Shown here piece after piece: positions 1,611 to 7,849 of a stretch of DNA of 38,558 bases. The stretch is from contig CABVRW010000003.1 in the NCBI GenBank assembly GCA_902500785.1, positions 97,886 to 136,443 on the forward strand, in the 5' to 3' direction. The stretch comes from an uncultured Nitrospira sp. (GTDB lineage: Bacteria; Nitrospirota; Nitrospiria; Nitrospirales; Nitrospiraceae). Positions within the stretch are counted from its first letter, which is position 1. Every line of letters begins with the position of its first letter. The notes under the pieces were generated by a model. The model was given only the letters and a program-made list of their open reading frames with translations. It was not told where the DNA came from and did not search any database. The translations under genes were made by a program, and so were the position numbers.

Positions 1611-1985
1611 ATGCACCCGCACCACTCAGCCTCAACCAAACCGCTGAACCTCTTCCCCCGTTCCCAAACAACTCTCATATTTCAGCGGTCGCAAGACCGC
1701 CTTGGTATTGTCTGTCCGGTCATGTTCTCCGGCGCTCCCTTTATCGGAGAGGGCATCATACAGAACTTATCGCAAAGCGGATGTTTGGTGGAGTGCGACC
1801 GCGCAGTGTTGCAGGGCAGTTATATTGCAGTGCGCATATTGCTACCCGACGAGATGCGATCATTGATCGTCGATCTCGCCGCCGTCCGCTGGGTCCGCAG
1901 TCAATGTTTCGGCATTGAGTTCCTACGGCTCCCGAACTCTGAACACACACGCCTGGCGCAATTCTTACGACGGCATCACAGCTGA
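1611..1985 (+). CDS. PilZ domain protein
   Basis: This is a 124-residue protein whose segment from about residue 27 to 118 reads as a PilZ beta-barrel: a basic residue near the domain start (RSQDRLG), then a GEGIIQNLSQSGCLVE strand-turn-strand in place of the usual DxSxxG motif (here NLSQSG), then strands ending in VDLAAVRWVRSQCFGIEFLRL. PilZ domains bind cyclic di-GMP in many bacteria and control motility, exopolysaccharide or pili. The canonical RxxxR arginine motif is degenerate here (I see RSQDR), so binding is plausible but not certain. The ATG at 1611 has only a weak ribosome binding site; the first ~25 residues may be untranslated. It is a stand-alone domain with no output module. Confidence 0.8.
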   Translation: MHPHHSASTKPLNLFPRSQTTLIFQRSQDRLGIVCPVMFSGAPFIGEGIIQNLSQSGCLVECDRAVLQGSYIAVRILLPDEMRSLIVDLAAVRWVRSQCFGIEFLRLPNSEHTRLAQFLRRHHS

Positions 1986-2127: not shown

Positions 2128-2580
2128 TCAGCGGCCAAAGGACCGTACATAGAGCAAGATGTGCCACGCCTCTTCTTCCGTGAGGACGAGCGGAACAAAG
2201 GATGCCATATCGGTTCCCGGACTCCCATTCTGCAAAATCCAGAATAATTCTCCATCGGTTCGCGCAGCCTGCCAAATCTTGTCCGTAAAATTTCGCGGCA
2301 GCTTACCGCGCAAGCCCTCGATGTCGCCGAGCCCCTTTCCCTCTCTGCCATGACACGTGGCGCAGAACGCTTTCCCGTGGAAAAGGGACTTTCCCTTCTC
2401 AACATTTTCTTCAGTCGAGGGGTAGGGATTGGTCCAGGCCCGGGCCTCTTCGATTTTGTCGACCGGTACGCGCGGCCTCAAGACCGCCTCATCGGCACCG
2501 AACGCCGACAAGCATCCCAAGCCAATCATGGCGGCGATCCCCAATGTCGCCTTACCACGAAGCTCCTTGCAGTGCGCCAT
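2128..2580 (-). CDS. Periplasmic monoheme cytochrome c
   Basis: This is a 150-residue protein with an N-terminal signal peptide (hydrophobic core around residues 12-28, cleavage probably after the AFGA near 29). One class I cytochrome c domain follows: the heme motif CATCH is at residues 73-77 in the context AFCATCHGREGKG, and a Met near residue 125 (GTDMASF) is the likely sixth ligand. The ATG at 2580 has GAAGGAAC a few bases upstream. It should carry electrons in the periplasm. It lies about 95 bases downstream of the DUF1264 gene on the same strand and close to a di-heme peroxidase, which suggests a shared redox or stress role. The specific electron partner cannot be read from the sequence. 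Confidence 0.88.
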   Translation of the reverse strand: MAHCKELRGKATLGIAAMIGLGCLSAFGADEAVLRPRVPVDKIEEARAWTNPYPSTEENVEKGKSLFHGKAFCATCHGREGKGLGDIEGLRGKLPRNFTDKIWQAARTDGELFWILQNGSPGTDMASFVPLVLTEEEAWHILLYVRSFGR

Positions 2581-2674
2581 AACAGTTCCTTCGTCTCAGG
2601 TTGAGTGGAGTACGACCGAAGAAAGGGCAGGGACCAGCCCTGACGATAGAACCGGACCGGTCCCCGCAGTGAAG

Positions 2675-3196
2675 CTACCTTTCGGAATGTCCTGGAAATT
2701 TATGGCCAAGGGACTGCGGGAATGATACCGTCCCGTCCGGAAACTCCTGGCCAGCTGGCCACAGATGGTAGATGACCCCATCGGTACCTGCCGCCACTTC
2801 CGCAACTTTCGCGGCTTGATCGGGGGGCAGATCGAGCACTTGGACGCGACCGGTTGCAATCTCGACCTTATGGTCGTGAAAGTGACGATGCCATTGAATC
2901 GGAGGCAGTTTCCGCGTCAGATCCTTCGAGACAAAATACTCGATAGCCACGAGTTTGGCTTTGGGATCTGGGGATTCGAAGAGGAGACATTGAAGGATTT
3001 GATCTGAAATGCCTTTGCAATAATGATGATATGGTCCGCCCGGCTCCCCGTTCGCCATGAGATGGGGCGCCTGCACGTGAATATCAAACCCATCGACCGG
3101 AGACTTGGGCTCTCCGCCGACCGCCTTCTGGGGAGCGACTCCCGCACATCCGATCGTCGCCGCTGCAAGAACGGCAAGTAGTCCTTTTCTCATCAC
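2675..3196 (-). CDS. DUF1264 (OBAP-like) lipoprotein
   Basis: This is a 173-residue protein starting MMRKGLLAVLAAATIGC, a signal peptide that could be lipidated at Cys17 (TIGC, a relaxed lipobox). The mature part carries the DUF1264 signature: GFDIHVQAPHLMANGEP, then HHYCKGISDQILQCLLFES, and a His-rich PIQWHRHFHDHKVEI segment. The family includes plant oil-body-associated proteins and bacterial homologues of unknown biochemistry; the dense His/Cys motifs suggest metal or cofactor binding, which is an inference. The GGGAGG upstream of the double ATG supports the start. It sits between a cytochrome c and a di-heme peroxidase, all on the minus strand. Confidence 0.82.
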   Translation of the reverse strand: MMRKGLLAVLAAATIGCAGVAPQKAVGGEPKSPVDGFDIHVQAPHLMANGEPGGPYHHYCKGISDQILQCLLFESPDPKAKLVAIEYFVSKDLTRKLPPIQWHRHFHDHKVEIATGRVQVLDLPPDQAAKVAEVAAGTDGVIYHLWPAGQEFPDGTVSFPQSLGHKFPGHSER

Positions 3197-3316
3197 AGGT
3201 GGCCTCCCGTCTAGTTTAGTTGGTTGATAGAACCGGCCTCAGCAACCGGCTGTTCATAGAGCACCACTGATTTAGAGTCCCATCCGAGAGAAACGATTCA
3301 ACAAACCTCCTTTCGC

Positions 3317-3334
3317 GATCATTTTTTAATGATC
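3317..3334 (-). terminator. Short AT-rich hairpin after the peroxidase gene
   Basis: A perfect 7-base inverted repeat (GATCATT / AATGATC) with a TTTT loop lies 38 bases beyond the stop of the cytochrome c peroxidase gene. It lacks a clear T-run on the minus strand, so it is at best a weak terminator or a transcript-end structure. Confidence 0.3.
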
Positions 3335-3371
3335 ACGAGTCGCCTCCCGCATAGCGGAGCTACGCAGCCTT

Positions 3372-4442
3372 CTATTTCGGCAGTTGTGGCATGCTGAACT
3401 TCATGGTTTCCCCCGTCAATGCCTTCAGAAACGCCACGAGATCGGTTTTCTCCTCAGCCGTCAGATTCAACGGCCTGACGAGTGGACTCAGATTGGGATT
3501 ACTTCCACCCCCCTGATCAAAAAACTCAACAACTTCTTCCAGCGTTTTGAAGGCGCCATCATGCATATAGGGCGAGGTTTCCGTAATACTGCGAAGAGTC
3601 GGCGTTTTAAAGGCCCCCTTGTCCTTCTCCGCCCTGGTCACGACATACCGGCCGAGATCGACCTTCAATGGACCCACTTGAGGCACGCCCAGATTGTGGA
3701 ACTGATTGTCCGTGAAATTCGGCCCGTTATGACAGAGCATGCAGCGGGCTTTCCCTTTAAAGAGGGCCATACCACGAATCGCCCCTTCGTCCATGGCCTT
3801 GCCGTCCCCCAACACATATTTATCAAACGCGGAATTGGTGGAGAGCACTGTGCGTTCGTATGCGGCAATGGCTTCGGCAATGCCCTGCAGGTTGACATCC
3901 GTTCCGAAAACGGCTCGAAACTGTTGCTGATAGCCCTTGATCTTGGCCAGCTTAGGCACAACGTGCTCATGTGTCTCCGCCATCTCGACGGGATTATGAA
4001 TGGGCCCGATCGCCTGTTCCTCAAGAGAACGCGCCCGCCCGTCCCAAAACTGGAAGGGATTGAAGGCCGTATTGAAGACCGTAGGCGACTGACGACCGCC
4101 GATACCTCCTCCCACTCCGATGGAAGTCTGACGAGAATCTGCAAATCCAGTCCCAGGATTGTGACAAAAGGCGCAGGAGACAGCGTTGTCTTTGGATAGG
4201 CGCCCATCAAAATAGAGTTGTTTCCCAAGCTCGACTTTCGTGGCGTAGTTGATATTGGTGGCAGGTGTGGGAATCGCGGTGGGGAGCGGACCGATATCAG
4301 GCACCGTCACGCCATCGATGGTCACGGTTCCGTGAGGTGCATGGCCGGACGGAGAGGCCCGGACCGGAGCGATTCCTGCGACGCAGACACAGACGGCCAG
4401 TAATGCAATGCTGAGGCGTGGCGGCAAGATAGATTGCACCAT
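3372..4442 (-). CDS. Di-heme cytochrome c peroxidase / MauG family protein
   Basis: This 356-residue periplasmic protein probably reduces hydrogen peroxide with electrons from a small cytochrome. The ATG at 4442 (MVQSILPP) is chosen over an in-frame one 60 bases upstream because AGGAGG lies 8 bases before it and a signal peptide follows directly (hydrophobic to about residue 29). Two heme sites are present: CAFCH at 90-94 and CMLCH at 234-238, the spacing typical of bacterial di-heme peroxidases. The family motifs QFWDGRARSLEEQA (131-144), RTVLSTNSAFDKY and FKTPTLRSITETSPYMHDG (Met293 region) are intact. Length is normal for the family. The small cytochrome c downstream is the obvious candidate electron donor. 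Confidence 0.93.
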   Translation of the reverse strand: MVQSILPPRLSIALLAVCVCVAGIAPVRASPSGHAPHGTVTIDGVTVPDIGPLPTAIPTPATNINYATKVELGKQLYFDGRLSKDNAVSCAFCHNPGTGFADSRQTSIGVGGGIGGRQSPTVFNTAFNPFQFWDGRARSLEEQAIGPIHNPVEMAETHEHVVPKLAKIKGYQQQFRAVFGTDVNLQGIAEAIAAYERTVLSTNSAFDKYVLGDGKAMDEGAIRGMALFKGKARCMLCHNGPNFTDNQFHNLGVPQVGPLKVDLGRYVVTRAEKDKGAFKTPTLRSITETSPYMHDGAFKTLEEVVEFFDQGGGSNPNLSPLVRPLNLTAEEKTDLVAFLKALTGETMKFSMPQLPK

Positions 4443-4610: not shown

Positions 4611-5210
4611 TTACATACCTCGCATCGTCGAACGCATGAGACTGTCGGCTTGCGGCGGCAGGAATCCCTGATAGCCCTGATGCCGCTCGGCCAGCTCAAG
4701 CACTGAAAATGGCTGCCCGTCGATCGTCTCAGGAGCCGTAAAGATCTGTCGCAACGTGCCTCCCTGAACACCGACGATCTCTCCGGCAAAGACCACCCCC
4801 TTCGCTTTCATTTTGAGAATGGCCTGCTCAATATCCTCCACCCGCACGGCCACATGGTGAAACACTCGATCACCGAATTTCTCAACCCAGCGAGGAATGA
4901 TGCTGGTCTTGCCTCGGTCGTCCGGATACGCCTGATCAACAAACAGGGCTGGGTATCCAGCCTTCCGGAATACCTTGGCATACCAATCGTCGTAGTGAAT
5001 CGTTTCATCGTACCCATACCCCAGAGCAATGAACTCCTCGGCACGCTGATCGATATTCATCGTCCTGATGGTGAGGTGGTCGATGACCGGCACAAACCCC
5101 ACTCCGATTTCATCCAACGCACGACGAAGCATTCCCGCCGCACGATTATGCGCCAAAAAGTCGGCTGTCATGCGACGAATCACGGCATCGAGGTCAGTTT
5201 CTTTTCCCAT
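4611..5210 (-). CDS. VOC-fold metalloenzyme in a lysine-catabolism operon
   Basis: This 199-residue protein is of the vicinal-oxygen-chelate/glyoxalase superfamily. Candidate metal ligands are His45 (VIDHLTIRT), His118 or His119 ([10 protein letters not shown]) and Glu172 (SVLELAER), the usual two-His-one-Glu set. Conserved-looking blocks include [22 protein letters not shown] and QIFTAPE. The start at 5210 has AGGAGG 6 bases upstream and overlaps the 3' end of the ALDH gene by 17 bases, so the genes are translationally coupled. With lysine-degrading enzymes upstream, a role on 2-oxoadipate or a related keto acid is attractive: the larger DUF1338/HglS enzymes of the same fold convert 2-oxoadipate to 2-hydroxyglutarate. 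That substrate is inference; the protein is far shorter than HglS. Confidence 0.72.
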
Positions 5211-6750
5211 CCTTTCCTCCTTCCGCCCGTCCGAACGTCATCCCCTGAGCAAGCGGCAACTCAGTCCCCCAATTGATCGTGTTGGTCTGCCGGCGCATGT
5301 ACGCCTTCCAGGCATCAGAGCCGGCTTCTCGTCCGCCACCCGTGGTTTTTTCTCCACCGAATGCCCCGCCGATTTCTGCGCCGGACGTCCCGATGTTCAC
5401 ATTGGCAATGCCGCAATCGCTGCCCATCGCGGACAAGAAGGTCTCACTGTTTCGAAGATGCGTGGTAAACAGCGAAGACGACAATCCTTGCGGAACGACA
5501 TTCTGCATCCGGATGGCCTCATCCAGCGTGTGATAGGTCATGAGATAGAGGATCGGCGCAAACGTCTCCCGCTGGACGATGTCCCAGTGGTTTTGAGCTC
5601 GCACGATCGTCGGCTCGACAAAATGCCCGGGACGAGACAAGACCCGTCCTCCGCACAGCACTTCACCGCCGTTTTTTTTCACTTCTTCGAGCGCAGAGAG
5701 ATAGCGCGTCACCGCCGCCGCGTCGATCAACGGCCCCATCAGTACATCCGGCTGGAGCGGATCACCGATCGCCACCTGCGCATAGGCTGAGAGGAGTCGA
5801 GGAACCAACTTCGCATATTGGGACTCATGTACGATTAGACGCCTGGTACTGGTGCAGCGCTGCCCCGACGTGCCGACGGCACCGAATACCACTGCACGTG
5901 TCGCCAGTTCGAGATCGGCCGTTTCGTCCACGATGACGGCATTGTTCCCGCTCAACTCCAAAAGACTCCGACCCAAGCGATGCCCGACCACTTCTGCCAC
6001 ATGCCTTCCGACCGGCACCGAACCGGTAAATGAGATGAGTGGGAGGCGTTCGTCACGAACCATCTGCTCGGCCATTTCGACGCGATCTGTCGCAAACAGC
6101 GCGAACACGCCCGGATACCCGGCCTGTTCCAACACACGGTTACAAAGACGCTGAACCGCCAGCGCACAGAGCGGAGCTTTCGGCGAGGGCTTCCACAACA
6201 CCGTATTGCCGGCCACCGCCGCAATGAAGGCGTTCCAAGCCCAGACCGCCACGGGGAAGTTAAACGCCGTGATGACACCTACCAAGCCCAAGGGATGCCA
6301 TTGCTCATACATCCGATGCCTGGCACGTTCTGAGTGCATGGTCTGTCCATACAGCATACGCGACAACCCGACGGCGAAGTCCGCCATATCGATCATCTCC
6401 TGCACTTCACCATCGCCCTCGGCCTTGATCTTACCCACCTCCAAGGACACCAGCGTGCCCAAGGCATCCTTGTGCTCCCTCAACGCCTGCCCGATCAGAC
6501 GAACCACCTCGCCGCGCTTAGGCGCCGGCACCATCCGCCATGCGGTCTGGACCTCCTGTGAACCGGTTACAATGGCGTCATAGTCCTCTGGGGAGCAACC
6601 GTACACCTGCGCCAACCGCGCTCCCGTCGATGGATTTTGTGACTCGATGACGCCGGCGTTTGTGGTGCGAGTCCACGTGGTGGAGGACAGGCATCCTCCC
6701 GGTTGTTCCGGCGCCAACCCCAAAGTCTTGAACAGTTCCTGTGTCGTCAT
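5194..6750 (-). CDS. ALDH7-type aminoadipate semialdehyde dehydrogenase
   Basis: This 518-residue NAD(P)-dependent aldehyde dehydrogenase is of the antiquitin (ALDH7) branch, which oxidises 2-aminoadipate 6-semialdehyde to 2-aminoadipate in lysine degradation. Catalytic residues are Asn164 ([10 protein letters not shown]), Glu265 (LLELSGNN) and Cys299 ([11 protein letters not shown]). The C-terminal blocks [40 protein letters not shown] and [12 protein letters not shown] are diagnostic of ALDH7 and intact. The start chosen is the ATG at 6750 (MTTQELFK), 7 bases after the stop of the dehydrogenase upstream; an in-frame ATG 123 bases earlier lies inside that gene and adds a non-homologous tail. 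It overlaps the VOC gene by 17 bases. Cytoplasmic. Confidence 0.93.
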
Positions 6751-6757
6751 GATGCCG

Positions 6758-7849
6758 TTAGGCCCGGAAACAGTCTCCGAACCGATTATTGAGCACATCC
6801 TGGAGGTGAAAGTGTTCCTGCGTGATAAAGCCGCGATAGGCTGATGGTTTGGCGAGCACGAGATCGACGACACTGCACAGCGACGACGCCGTGGTGACTT
6901 GGATAGCGGACCAGAGACGCCCGAGAAGAGTTTGCGGATACACCTTCTTCACGTAGGTCTCCTCGAACAATTCTCCCTGTCGAGTCCCGGTGACGGCGGC
7001 ATAAATCAGCACCACATCCTGGTAAGTCTGCGGAATCGCTCCCTCGAGAATACGTTTGAGCGTCGCTCGATCCTCGTTCAGTTTGAGATCTTTCATGAGG
7101 AAGTGGATTTTCTCGCAATGGCCGGGATACCGCAGGGTCTTATAATTCATCGTGCGAACCCGTCCGCGGTAGGTATCGGCCAAGGTGCCCAGCCCGCCGG
7201 ACGTGTTGAAGGCTTCATAGAGAAGACCGTCGAGTTCGATCGTCTCATAGCCTTCCAGTGGTTGTAATGGAACTTCCTCTCCATTTTCGATTCCGACGCA
7301 GACATTTCCATACTCATTGATCAACCCGTCGGTGGACCAGGTAAGGGAATACTTTAACGCATTGCTGGGATGAACGGGCAGCGCACCGACGCGCATCTTC
7401 ACATTATCGATGGACTCGAAATGGCCGATCAGGTCGTTCGTCACGATACTGATAAAACCGGGGGCTAACCCGCACTGGGGGATAAACGCCTGATCAGCGC
7501 CCTCGCTGATCGCCTTGACGCGACCGGTCACGGACACATCTTCGGTCAGATCGAAATAGTGTAATTGATGGGCTCGTGCGATCTCCGCGACGGCCGGATT
7601 ACAAAAGTACGGCAGACTGGAGATCACGGCATCAAACCGATGGGAAGTCACATAGGCCACAACCGAGTCAGGCCGGCGCACATCCAACGCACAGGGGGTG
7701 ACCGCCGAAAGCGACAATTCATCAACCAGTCGCTTCGGCACATCCAGGGTGAGATCGGCCAGGTGAATGTGATACTGCCCCCTCGCGGATAGCAATCCTG
7801 CGACGAGAGACCCAATTTTCCCCGCTCCCAGCACCAATACCTGAGGCAT
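6758..7849 (-). CDS. Lysine 6-dehydrogenase / saccharopine dehydrogenase-like oxidoreductase
   Basis: This 363-residue protein begins with a Rossmann fold ([17 protein letters not shown], residues 4-20) and continues with a saccharopine-dehydrogenase-type C-terminal domain: [45 protein letters not shown] and [12 protein letters not shown]. The length and the last two blocks recall bacterial lysine 6-dehydrogenases (L-lysine to aminoadipate semialdehyde with NAD), which share this fold; a saccharopine dehydrogenase is the alternative, but no lysine-ketoglutarate reductase is present here. Followed at 7 bases by an ALDH7 gene, it would supply exactly that enzyme's substrate. GAGGTG precedes the ATG at 7849. 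First gene of the operon; no clear promoter found in the 137 bases upstream. Confidence 0.82.

Follow-up and report, generated by a model that had tools for sequence, protein, structure and literature searches.

Introduction

DUF1264 is a protein family known mainly from the oil bodies of plants, and the literature that we surveyed by title reports no biochemical activity for it. The family is also named in cold-shock-domain proteins in the available part of one paper (PMC4679880), which has no bearing on the gene pair considered here. For the cytochrome of that pair the closest comparison is cytochrome 579, which the available part of PMC8126622 describes as a periplasmic electron conduit in iron-oxidising Leptospirillum, with an unusual haem spectrum and an octameric assembly. 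Here we describe a short, secreted-looking DUF1264 protein encoded next to a mono-haem cytochrome c in a 38,558-nucleotide stretch of an uncultured Nitrospira sp. genome (GCA_902500785.1, contig CABVRW010000003.1, positions 97,886 to 136,443 of the forward strand). We refer to this whole stretch as the window; the genome that contains it measures 3.9 Mb and is 99.6% complete. No description of such a pair was found in the surveyed literature on DUF1264 and on Nitrospira cytochromes, including the available parts of PMC10654088, PMC8126622, PMC12342949 and PMC6606698.

A cytochrome c gene follows the DUF1264 gene in two phyla

In the window, the DUF1264 gene (2675..3193, minus strand) encodes 172 aa from the ATG at 3193, or 173 aa from an alternative GTG start at 3196, and is followed by a mono-haem cytochrome c gene (2128..2580, minus strand). 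A gene for a di-haem peroxidase of the cytochrome c peroxidase/MauG type (3372..4442, minus strand) precedes it, so that all three genes lie on one strand in the order given in the preliminary description, which had been made from the sequence of this window alone. The DUF1264 protein is 99% identical to a copy in a Nitrospira metagenome-assembled genome (locus L158).

Matches to the family profile PF06884 were found in 91 of 295 Nitrospirota genomes and 37 of 77 Nitrospinota genomes. For the analysis of gene order we used 100 Nitrospirota and 40 Nitrospinota stretches around DUF1264, with genes predicted by a simple codon-usage caller. Two Nitrospirota stretches in which the caller found no DUF1264 gene (L100 and L136) were left out, giving 98 loci; the fetched set did not include G068, the contig-end match G299:C45, or G002, G007, G009, G016, G017, G030, G034, G037 and G039, and comprised 40 of the 46 Nitrospinota matches. 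A partner was scored when the next downstream gene on the same strand encoded a protein of fewer than 200 aa with one CXXCH motif. By this definition the cytochrome is the next gene at 90 of the 98 Nitrospirota loci, rising to 92 with a scan of open frames, as compared with 33 of 1536 other gene pairs, a control drawn from the same cytochrome-rich Nitrospirota stretches and from that phylum only. Among the 40 Nitrospinota loci the cytochrome is next in 30 and next but one in two, and the frame scan added three more (35/40). A cytochrome thus follows DUF1264 at 127 of 138 loci. The preliminary description had suggested a link to c-type cytochromes, and its recurrence across two phyla makes that link stronger than a single window could show. 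The pairing is well supported, and we consider it very probable that it is functional.

The Nitrospirota loci that lack a partner are L105, L116, L129, L130 (a canonical long copy), L146 and L157 (a divergent copy); L116 was scored as a miss even though its contig ends 891 bases downstream. Those in Nitrospinota are L270, L278, L280, L285 and L286, four of which belong to genomes with another DUF1264 copy.

Two variations on the arrangement were seen. In 13 loci of the window's genus (L065-L077) two tandem DUF1264 genes precede the cytochrome gene. Elsewhere, a secreted-looking protein of approximately 170-182 aa with no Pfam match (cluster 37) recurs near the pair, as at loci L268, L274 and L138. 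It was found in seven Nitrospirota loci, all from a single sister family (f3), and in two Nitrospinota loci a protein that resembles it by eye separates the DUF1264 gene from that of the cytochrome. The cluster 37 protein may be a third component of the pair.

The partner is a distant relative of cytochrome 579

The partner cytochrome belongs to PF00034 and carries one CXXCH motif (CATCH at residue 73). C73, C76, H77 and M125 are invariant in 22 aligned partner rows, with the conserved methionine as a candidate sixth ligand of the haem. Its best NCBIfam match is NF033864, cytochrome579 (E 2.8e-30), and the two proteins are alike in being small, mono-haem and of CXXCH type; the score of 105 bits nevertheless falls far below the 280-bit equivalog cut-off, so the partner is, as judged by profile score, a distant homologue of Leptospirillum cytochrome 579 and not cytochrome 579 itself. 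Because two other genes of the window's genome score higher against NF033864 (142 and 139 bits, compared with 104 for the partner), the partner is one specific paralogue. A profile search of solved structures returned 17 matches at E <= 0.001, among them 6h5l (E 7.5e-19), labelled a "conserved hypothetical cytochrome protein", and 5mxz, which is cytochrome c-552 Ks_3358 (E 5.6e-7).

A shortened DUF1264 subfamily with a near-invariant His/Glu set

The assignment to DUF1264 made in the preliminary description is borne out by a PF06884 match well above the cut-off (68 against 25 bits, E 1e-18). As the match spans only positions 2-128 of the 171-position profile, we assign the protein, by score and shared residues, to a shortened subfamily of DUF1264 and not to the full-length family.

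We aligned 165 DUF1264 proteins, comprising 111 from Nitrospirota, 40 from Nitrospinota and 14 canonical copies. Wherever the alignment covers them, H57, E85 (2939..2941, minus strand), H108 and E111 (2861..2863, minus strand) are invariant, and H56 and H106 have one exception each, a glutamine in the case of H106. H56 and H57 open an HHYC stretch (H56, H57, Y58 and C59; 3017..3028, minus strand), and H106 and H108 flank D107 in an HDH triplet (2870..2878, minus strand). C59 and C69 (2987..2989, minus strand) are present or absent jointly, and both are missing in 4 of the 14 canonical copies, which have Val and Ala instead. The set of H57, E85, H106, H108 and E111 probably forms a metal site. 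The motif WHRHFHDH, which had been singled out in the preliminary description as metal-binding in type, survives in its second half only: HDH is conserved, and we rejected the eight-residue motif as a unit, since the 111 Nitrospirota copies are divided at position 102 mainly between H (60 copies) and N (49 copies), and position 104 is usually occupied by H, Y, F or N. Copies seen at the tandem loci read WNKxYHDH where others read WHRxFHDH.

A signal-like hydrophobic N-terminus is visible in the window's protein, and a crude pattern finds a signal-like core in 107 of 111 Nitrospirota, 37 of 40 Nitrospinota and 11 of 14 canonical copies. A lipobox-like cysteine, also by a crude pattern, is patchier (63/111, 7/40 and 7/14, respectively), and the lipobox of the window's protein, TIGC, is weak. 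Of the periplasmic lipoprotein first predicted for this gene, secretion therefore holds generally and lipidation does not.

Structure prediction gave two DUF1264 models with mean predicted local distance difference test (pLDDT) values of 80 and 85. In both, C59 and C69 lie on opposite strands (51-61 and 66-72) of one hairpin; judging from this predicted secondary structure, the two cysteines probably pair across the beta hairpin, and a disulfide is possible. The second model places the HDH triplet between two helices. A search of the PDB by sequence gave no match to the DUF1264 protein, and Foldseek against viral models gave none at E <= 0.001. A likeness of the first model to cytochrome c' beta (Z 2.3-2.4) was dropped, as it did not recur in the listed results for the better model. 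The preliminary description had hinted at a redox or haem/metal role; the near-invariant His/Glu set makes the metal part plausible, although no solved fold was matched.

The two genes appear to have been inherited together

Maximum-likelihood, midpoint-rooted trees were built from 81 dereplicated pairs out of 122, with five partners found only by the frame scan excluded. In both gene trees the identical Nitrospinota rows split into 20 that form their own deep clade and nine that fall among Nitrospirota, which suggests that both genes were probably passed on, and transferred, as a unit; support is moderate in places and the DUF1264 tree carries a long-branch warning. One Nitrospinota genome (G314) has both kinds of DUF1264, each beside the matching cytochrome (L275 and L291). 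Pairwise distances of the two genes correlate with r of 0.77 across all pairs, 0.54 without the deep clade and 0.50 within it, and none of 999 permutations reached the observed values.

The converse case, genomes lacking DUF1264, was examined with a profile of the partner cytochrome (alignment A2). In 10 of 10 DUF1264-positive genomes it scored 202-242 bits at the DUF1264 locus, and the next-best matches reached at most 177. Among six nxrB-positive Nitrospiraceae without PF06884, five gave only 156-169 bits and G189 gave 202; in six nxrB-positive Nitrospinota without PF06884, five gave 180-198 bits and one 95; ten further DUF1264-negative Nitrospirota genomes gave 61-172 bits. A partner-like cytochrome is thus present in 6 of the 12 nxrB-positive genomes that lack DUF1264, and DUF1264 without the cytochrome is rarer, at 11 of 138 loci; by these scores, the cytochrome appears to survive the absence of DUF1264 more readily than the reverse. 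In G330, approximately the last 29 residues of DUF1264 are still encoded beside the retained cytochrome gene (19 bits), a sign of secondary loss.

Nitrite oxidation was considered as a fixed function of the pair and rejected, as the co-occurrence of PF06884 with nxrB follows clades. Of the 69 Nitrospirota genomes whose nxrB reaches at least 92% identity, 63 have a PF06884 match, as do 14 of the 20 Nitrospinota genomes whose nxrB reaches at least 66%, where the nxrB counts are to be read as "at least" because at most five candidates were scored per genome. Twelve nxrB-positive genomes, several of them small, lack PF06884, and PF06884 is present in 28 Nitrospirota genomes, the window's own among them, that have no strong nxrB match. 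At E <= 1e-100, no match to nxrB was found in the window's genome (G000), which assembly gaps may explain, or among the five of eight candidates scored in a single-contig relative (G008).

The cytochrome link is a trait of the secreted short subfamily

A scan of genome contigs, covering the best 80 of 268 loci, gave records named as Nitrospirota or Nitrospinota and a single one (L190) named as Nitrosospira. For canonical relatives we turned to plasmids, hand-picking 13 of 39 Pseudomonadota "OBAP family" hits for variety. The cytochrome pairing is absent in all 13 plasmid loci, whose gene tables are incomplete, and one of them (L321) has an annotated c-type cytochrome no more than 5 kb away. 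The canonical copies seen have roughly 220-310 aa, unlike the approximately 172 aa of the window's protein, and do not adjoin a cytochrome gene as the window's group does; the two groups nonetheless have H57, E85, H106, H108 and E111 in common, and 11 of the 14 canonical bacterial copies also look secreted by the same crude test. The lack of a link to cytochromes, which the preliminary description had named as the outcome that would speak against its proposal, is therefore largely what the plasmid relatives display and clearly not what is seen in Nitrospirota and Nitrospinota. Judging from these 13 loci, the cytochrome link is a feature of the secreted short subfamily rather than of bacterial DUF1264 as a whole.

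Plasmid copies from Erwinia, Pantoea, Acinetobacter and Chimaeribacter (L318, L323, L325 and L326) lack both cysteines and keep the His/Glu set. At L130, genome G293 carries a full-length canonical DUF1264 gene (PF06884 E 2.4e-69) without a cytochrome, besides a short form; this canonical copy was perhaps acquired from elsewhere.

The peroxidase and other neighbouring genes

The third gene of the window shares with bacterial di-haem cytochrome c peroxidase and MauG a PF03150 match (206 bits against a cut-off of 25.6) and two CXXCH motifs, at residues 90 and 234 of its 356 aa; with 267 bits it falls below the 444-bit equivalog cut-off of MauG (TIGR03791). It is a part-time neighbour. Among the 98 Nitrospirota loci, 21 have a peroxidase gene directly upstream of DUF1264, and 17 of these 21 belong to the window's genus; counted anywhere in the stretch, a peroxidase gene occurs in 24 of 98 Nitrospirota and 9 of 40 Nitrospinota. 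The gene upstream of DUF1264 falls into 28 cluster-and-strand types across 97 loci, the commonest being a PSP1-domain protein (30 loci) followed by the peroxidase (21 loci). We therefore rejected the peroxidase as a constant partner; of the cytochrome and peroxidase set originally proposed, the cytochrome is constant and the peroxidase limited by lineage, so the cytochrome's fixed neighbour is DUF1264.

Farther upstream, a minus-strand run (4611-7849) contains glyoxalase-like, aldehyde dehydrogenase and saccharopine-dehydrogenase-like genes, possibly for lysine catabolism, and 27-28 of 98 loci have the clusters of this run no more than five genes away. On the other side, a PilZ-domain gene (1611-1985, plus strand) points towards the cytochrome gene, and 16 of 98 loci have cluster 24, which resembles this gene by eye, close to the pair. 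A scan for promoters and terminators gave two promoter-like sites against 1.8 expected and six terminator-like sites against 3.5, and was not used. The "tetrahaem cytc" row of the context counts was unspecific and was disregarded.

Discussion

We tentatively favour, as the most likely of several readings though by no means an assured one, a periplasmic and probably metal-binding DUF1264 accessory that exchanges electrons with a cytochrome-579-like carrier. Under this proposal, the two genes would form a periplasmic module in which the cytochrome would be a small electron carrier of the cytochrome 579 type and DUF1264 an accessory acting on or with it, most likely by exchanging electrons. DUF1264 could oxidise a small reactive substrate and pass the electrons into the cytochrome, or it could draw on the cytochrome for detoxification. 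Metal binding, direct contact, electron exchange and the substrate are each inferred. Redox exchange through a metal site is our first choice and a docking or maturation helper a close second.

Several observations weigh against this proposal. The partner is missing at 11 loci, and the loci come from related species, so that 127 of 138 does not amount to 127 independent events; shared species history likewise adds to the distance correlation. The intergenic gaps (median 91, range 19-239 bases, 90 loci) are no proof of co-transcription. The nine nested Nitrospinota rows form two groups (of five and four) in the DUF1264 tree and part of one 11-row clade in the cytochrome tree, and the A2 profile was built partly from the genomes tested, with orthology assigned by score alone. 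The two DUF1264 models gave no Foldseek match in the PDB at E <= 0.001 (best E 0.23 and 0.14), and a VIA structure comparison gave best Z values of only 4.4 and 3.8. The contexts are diverse, with a peroxidase in 33 and sulfur-type genes in 30 of 138 stretches. Finally, a helper without redox activity would also account for a cytochrome that persists where DUF1264 is absent.

Such a helper, serving in docking, anchoring or maturation, would hold the carrier at the membrane or protect its haem. The constancy of the pairing, the asymmetric loss, the lipobox-like cysteine of some copies and the resemblance by eye of the cytochrome to an ordinary soluble secreted protein are all in keeping with it. 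The same lipobox-like cysteine is, however, confined to part of the copies in either phylum, and the near-invariant His/Glu set suggests a metal or catalysis and persists in canonical relatives that have no such cytochrome; we regard this explanation as somewhat unlikely, though the strongest of the rivals.

The remaining two functional rivals look to the wider neighbourhood, and we judge both to be improbable, to a similar degree. In the first, the three genes of the window would act together in defence against peroxide, with the cytochrome, as first supposed, supplying electrons to the di-haem peroxidase and DUF1264 in an assisting role. The window's genome has only two PF03150 matches, so the placement of one beside DUF1264 is above chance, and manganese catalase genes lie near 2 of the 13 canonical plasmid copies (L318 and L322); most loci, however, keep the pair without a peroxidase, and the direct peroxidase neighbours are concentrated in one genus. 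In the second, the pair would serve a periplasmic sulfur function, receiving electrons from the handling of sulfite, thiosulfate or persulfide or acting as a persulfide guard. Genes of sulfite-oxidase-like, SoxA/TsdA-like, DsrE, YgaP-like, rhodanese or metallo-beta-lactamase (MBL) type occur in 18 of 98 Nitrospirota and 12 of 40 Nitrospinota stretches as raw counts, and canonical copies carried by plasmids of Azospirillum and P. fluorescens (L314 and L321, 2 of 13 loci) lie in islands of Dsb/rhodanese or sulfur transferase/MBL/TauE/YeeE genes. By the models used, 108 of 138 stretches nevertheless have no such gene, which makes the association too patchy, and the island genes occur in clusters and are unevenly spread across the phylogeny; DsrE matches alone number from one to eight per genome among 31 genomes. 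A mere inherited gene order without functional tie is very improbable: the loci do come from related species, yet the gene on the opposite side of DUF1264 varies freely whereas the cytochrome is retained, and both trees contain the same nested Nitrospinota subset.

With a pairing that spans two phyla, among whose members are the main nitrite oxidisers, DUF1264 acquires a specific candidate partner; the conserved residues provide a short list for mutation and the pair offers a direct assay. A bolder proposal, which we think unlikely, is that DUF1264 represents a new class of periplasmic metalloprotein that gives electrons to, or receives them from, a dedicated cytochrome-579-like carrier in nitrite oxidisers, and that its plant members keep the metal site. 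If the site is indeed kept in the oil-body proteins, their role in seeds would be one of redox chemistry and not merely structural. Nitrospira and Nitrospina are major players in the nitrogen cycle, and if the pair carries electrons, it would constitute an unrecognised component of their little-known periplasmic electron transfer.

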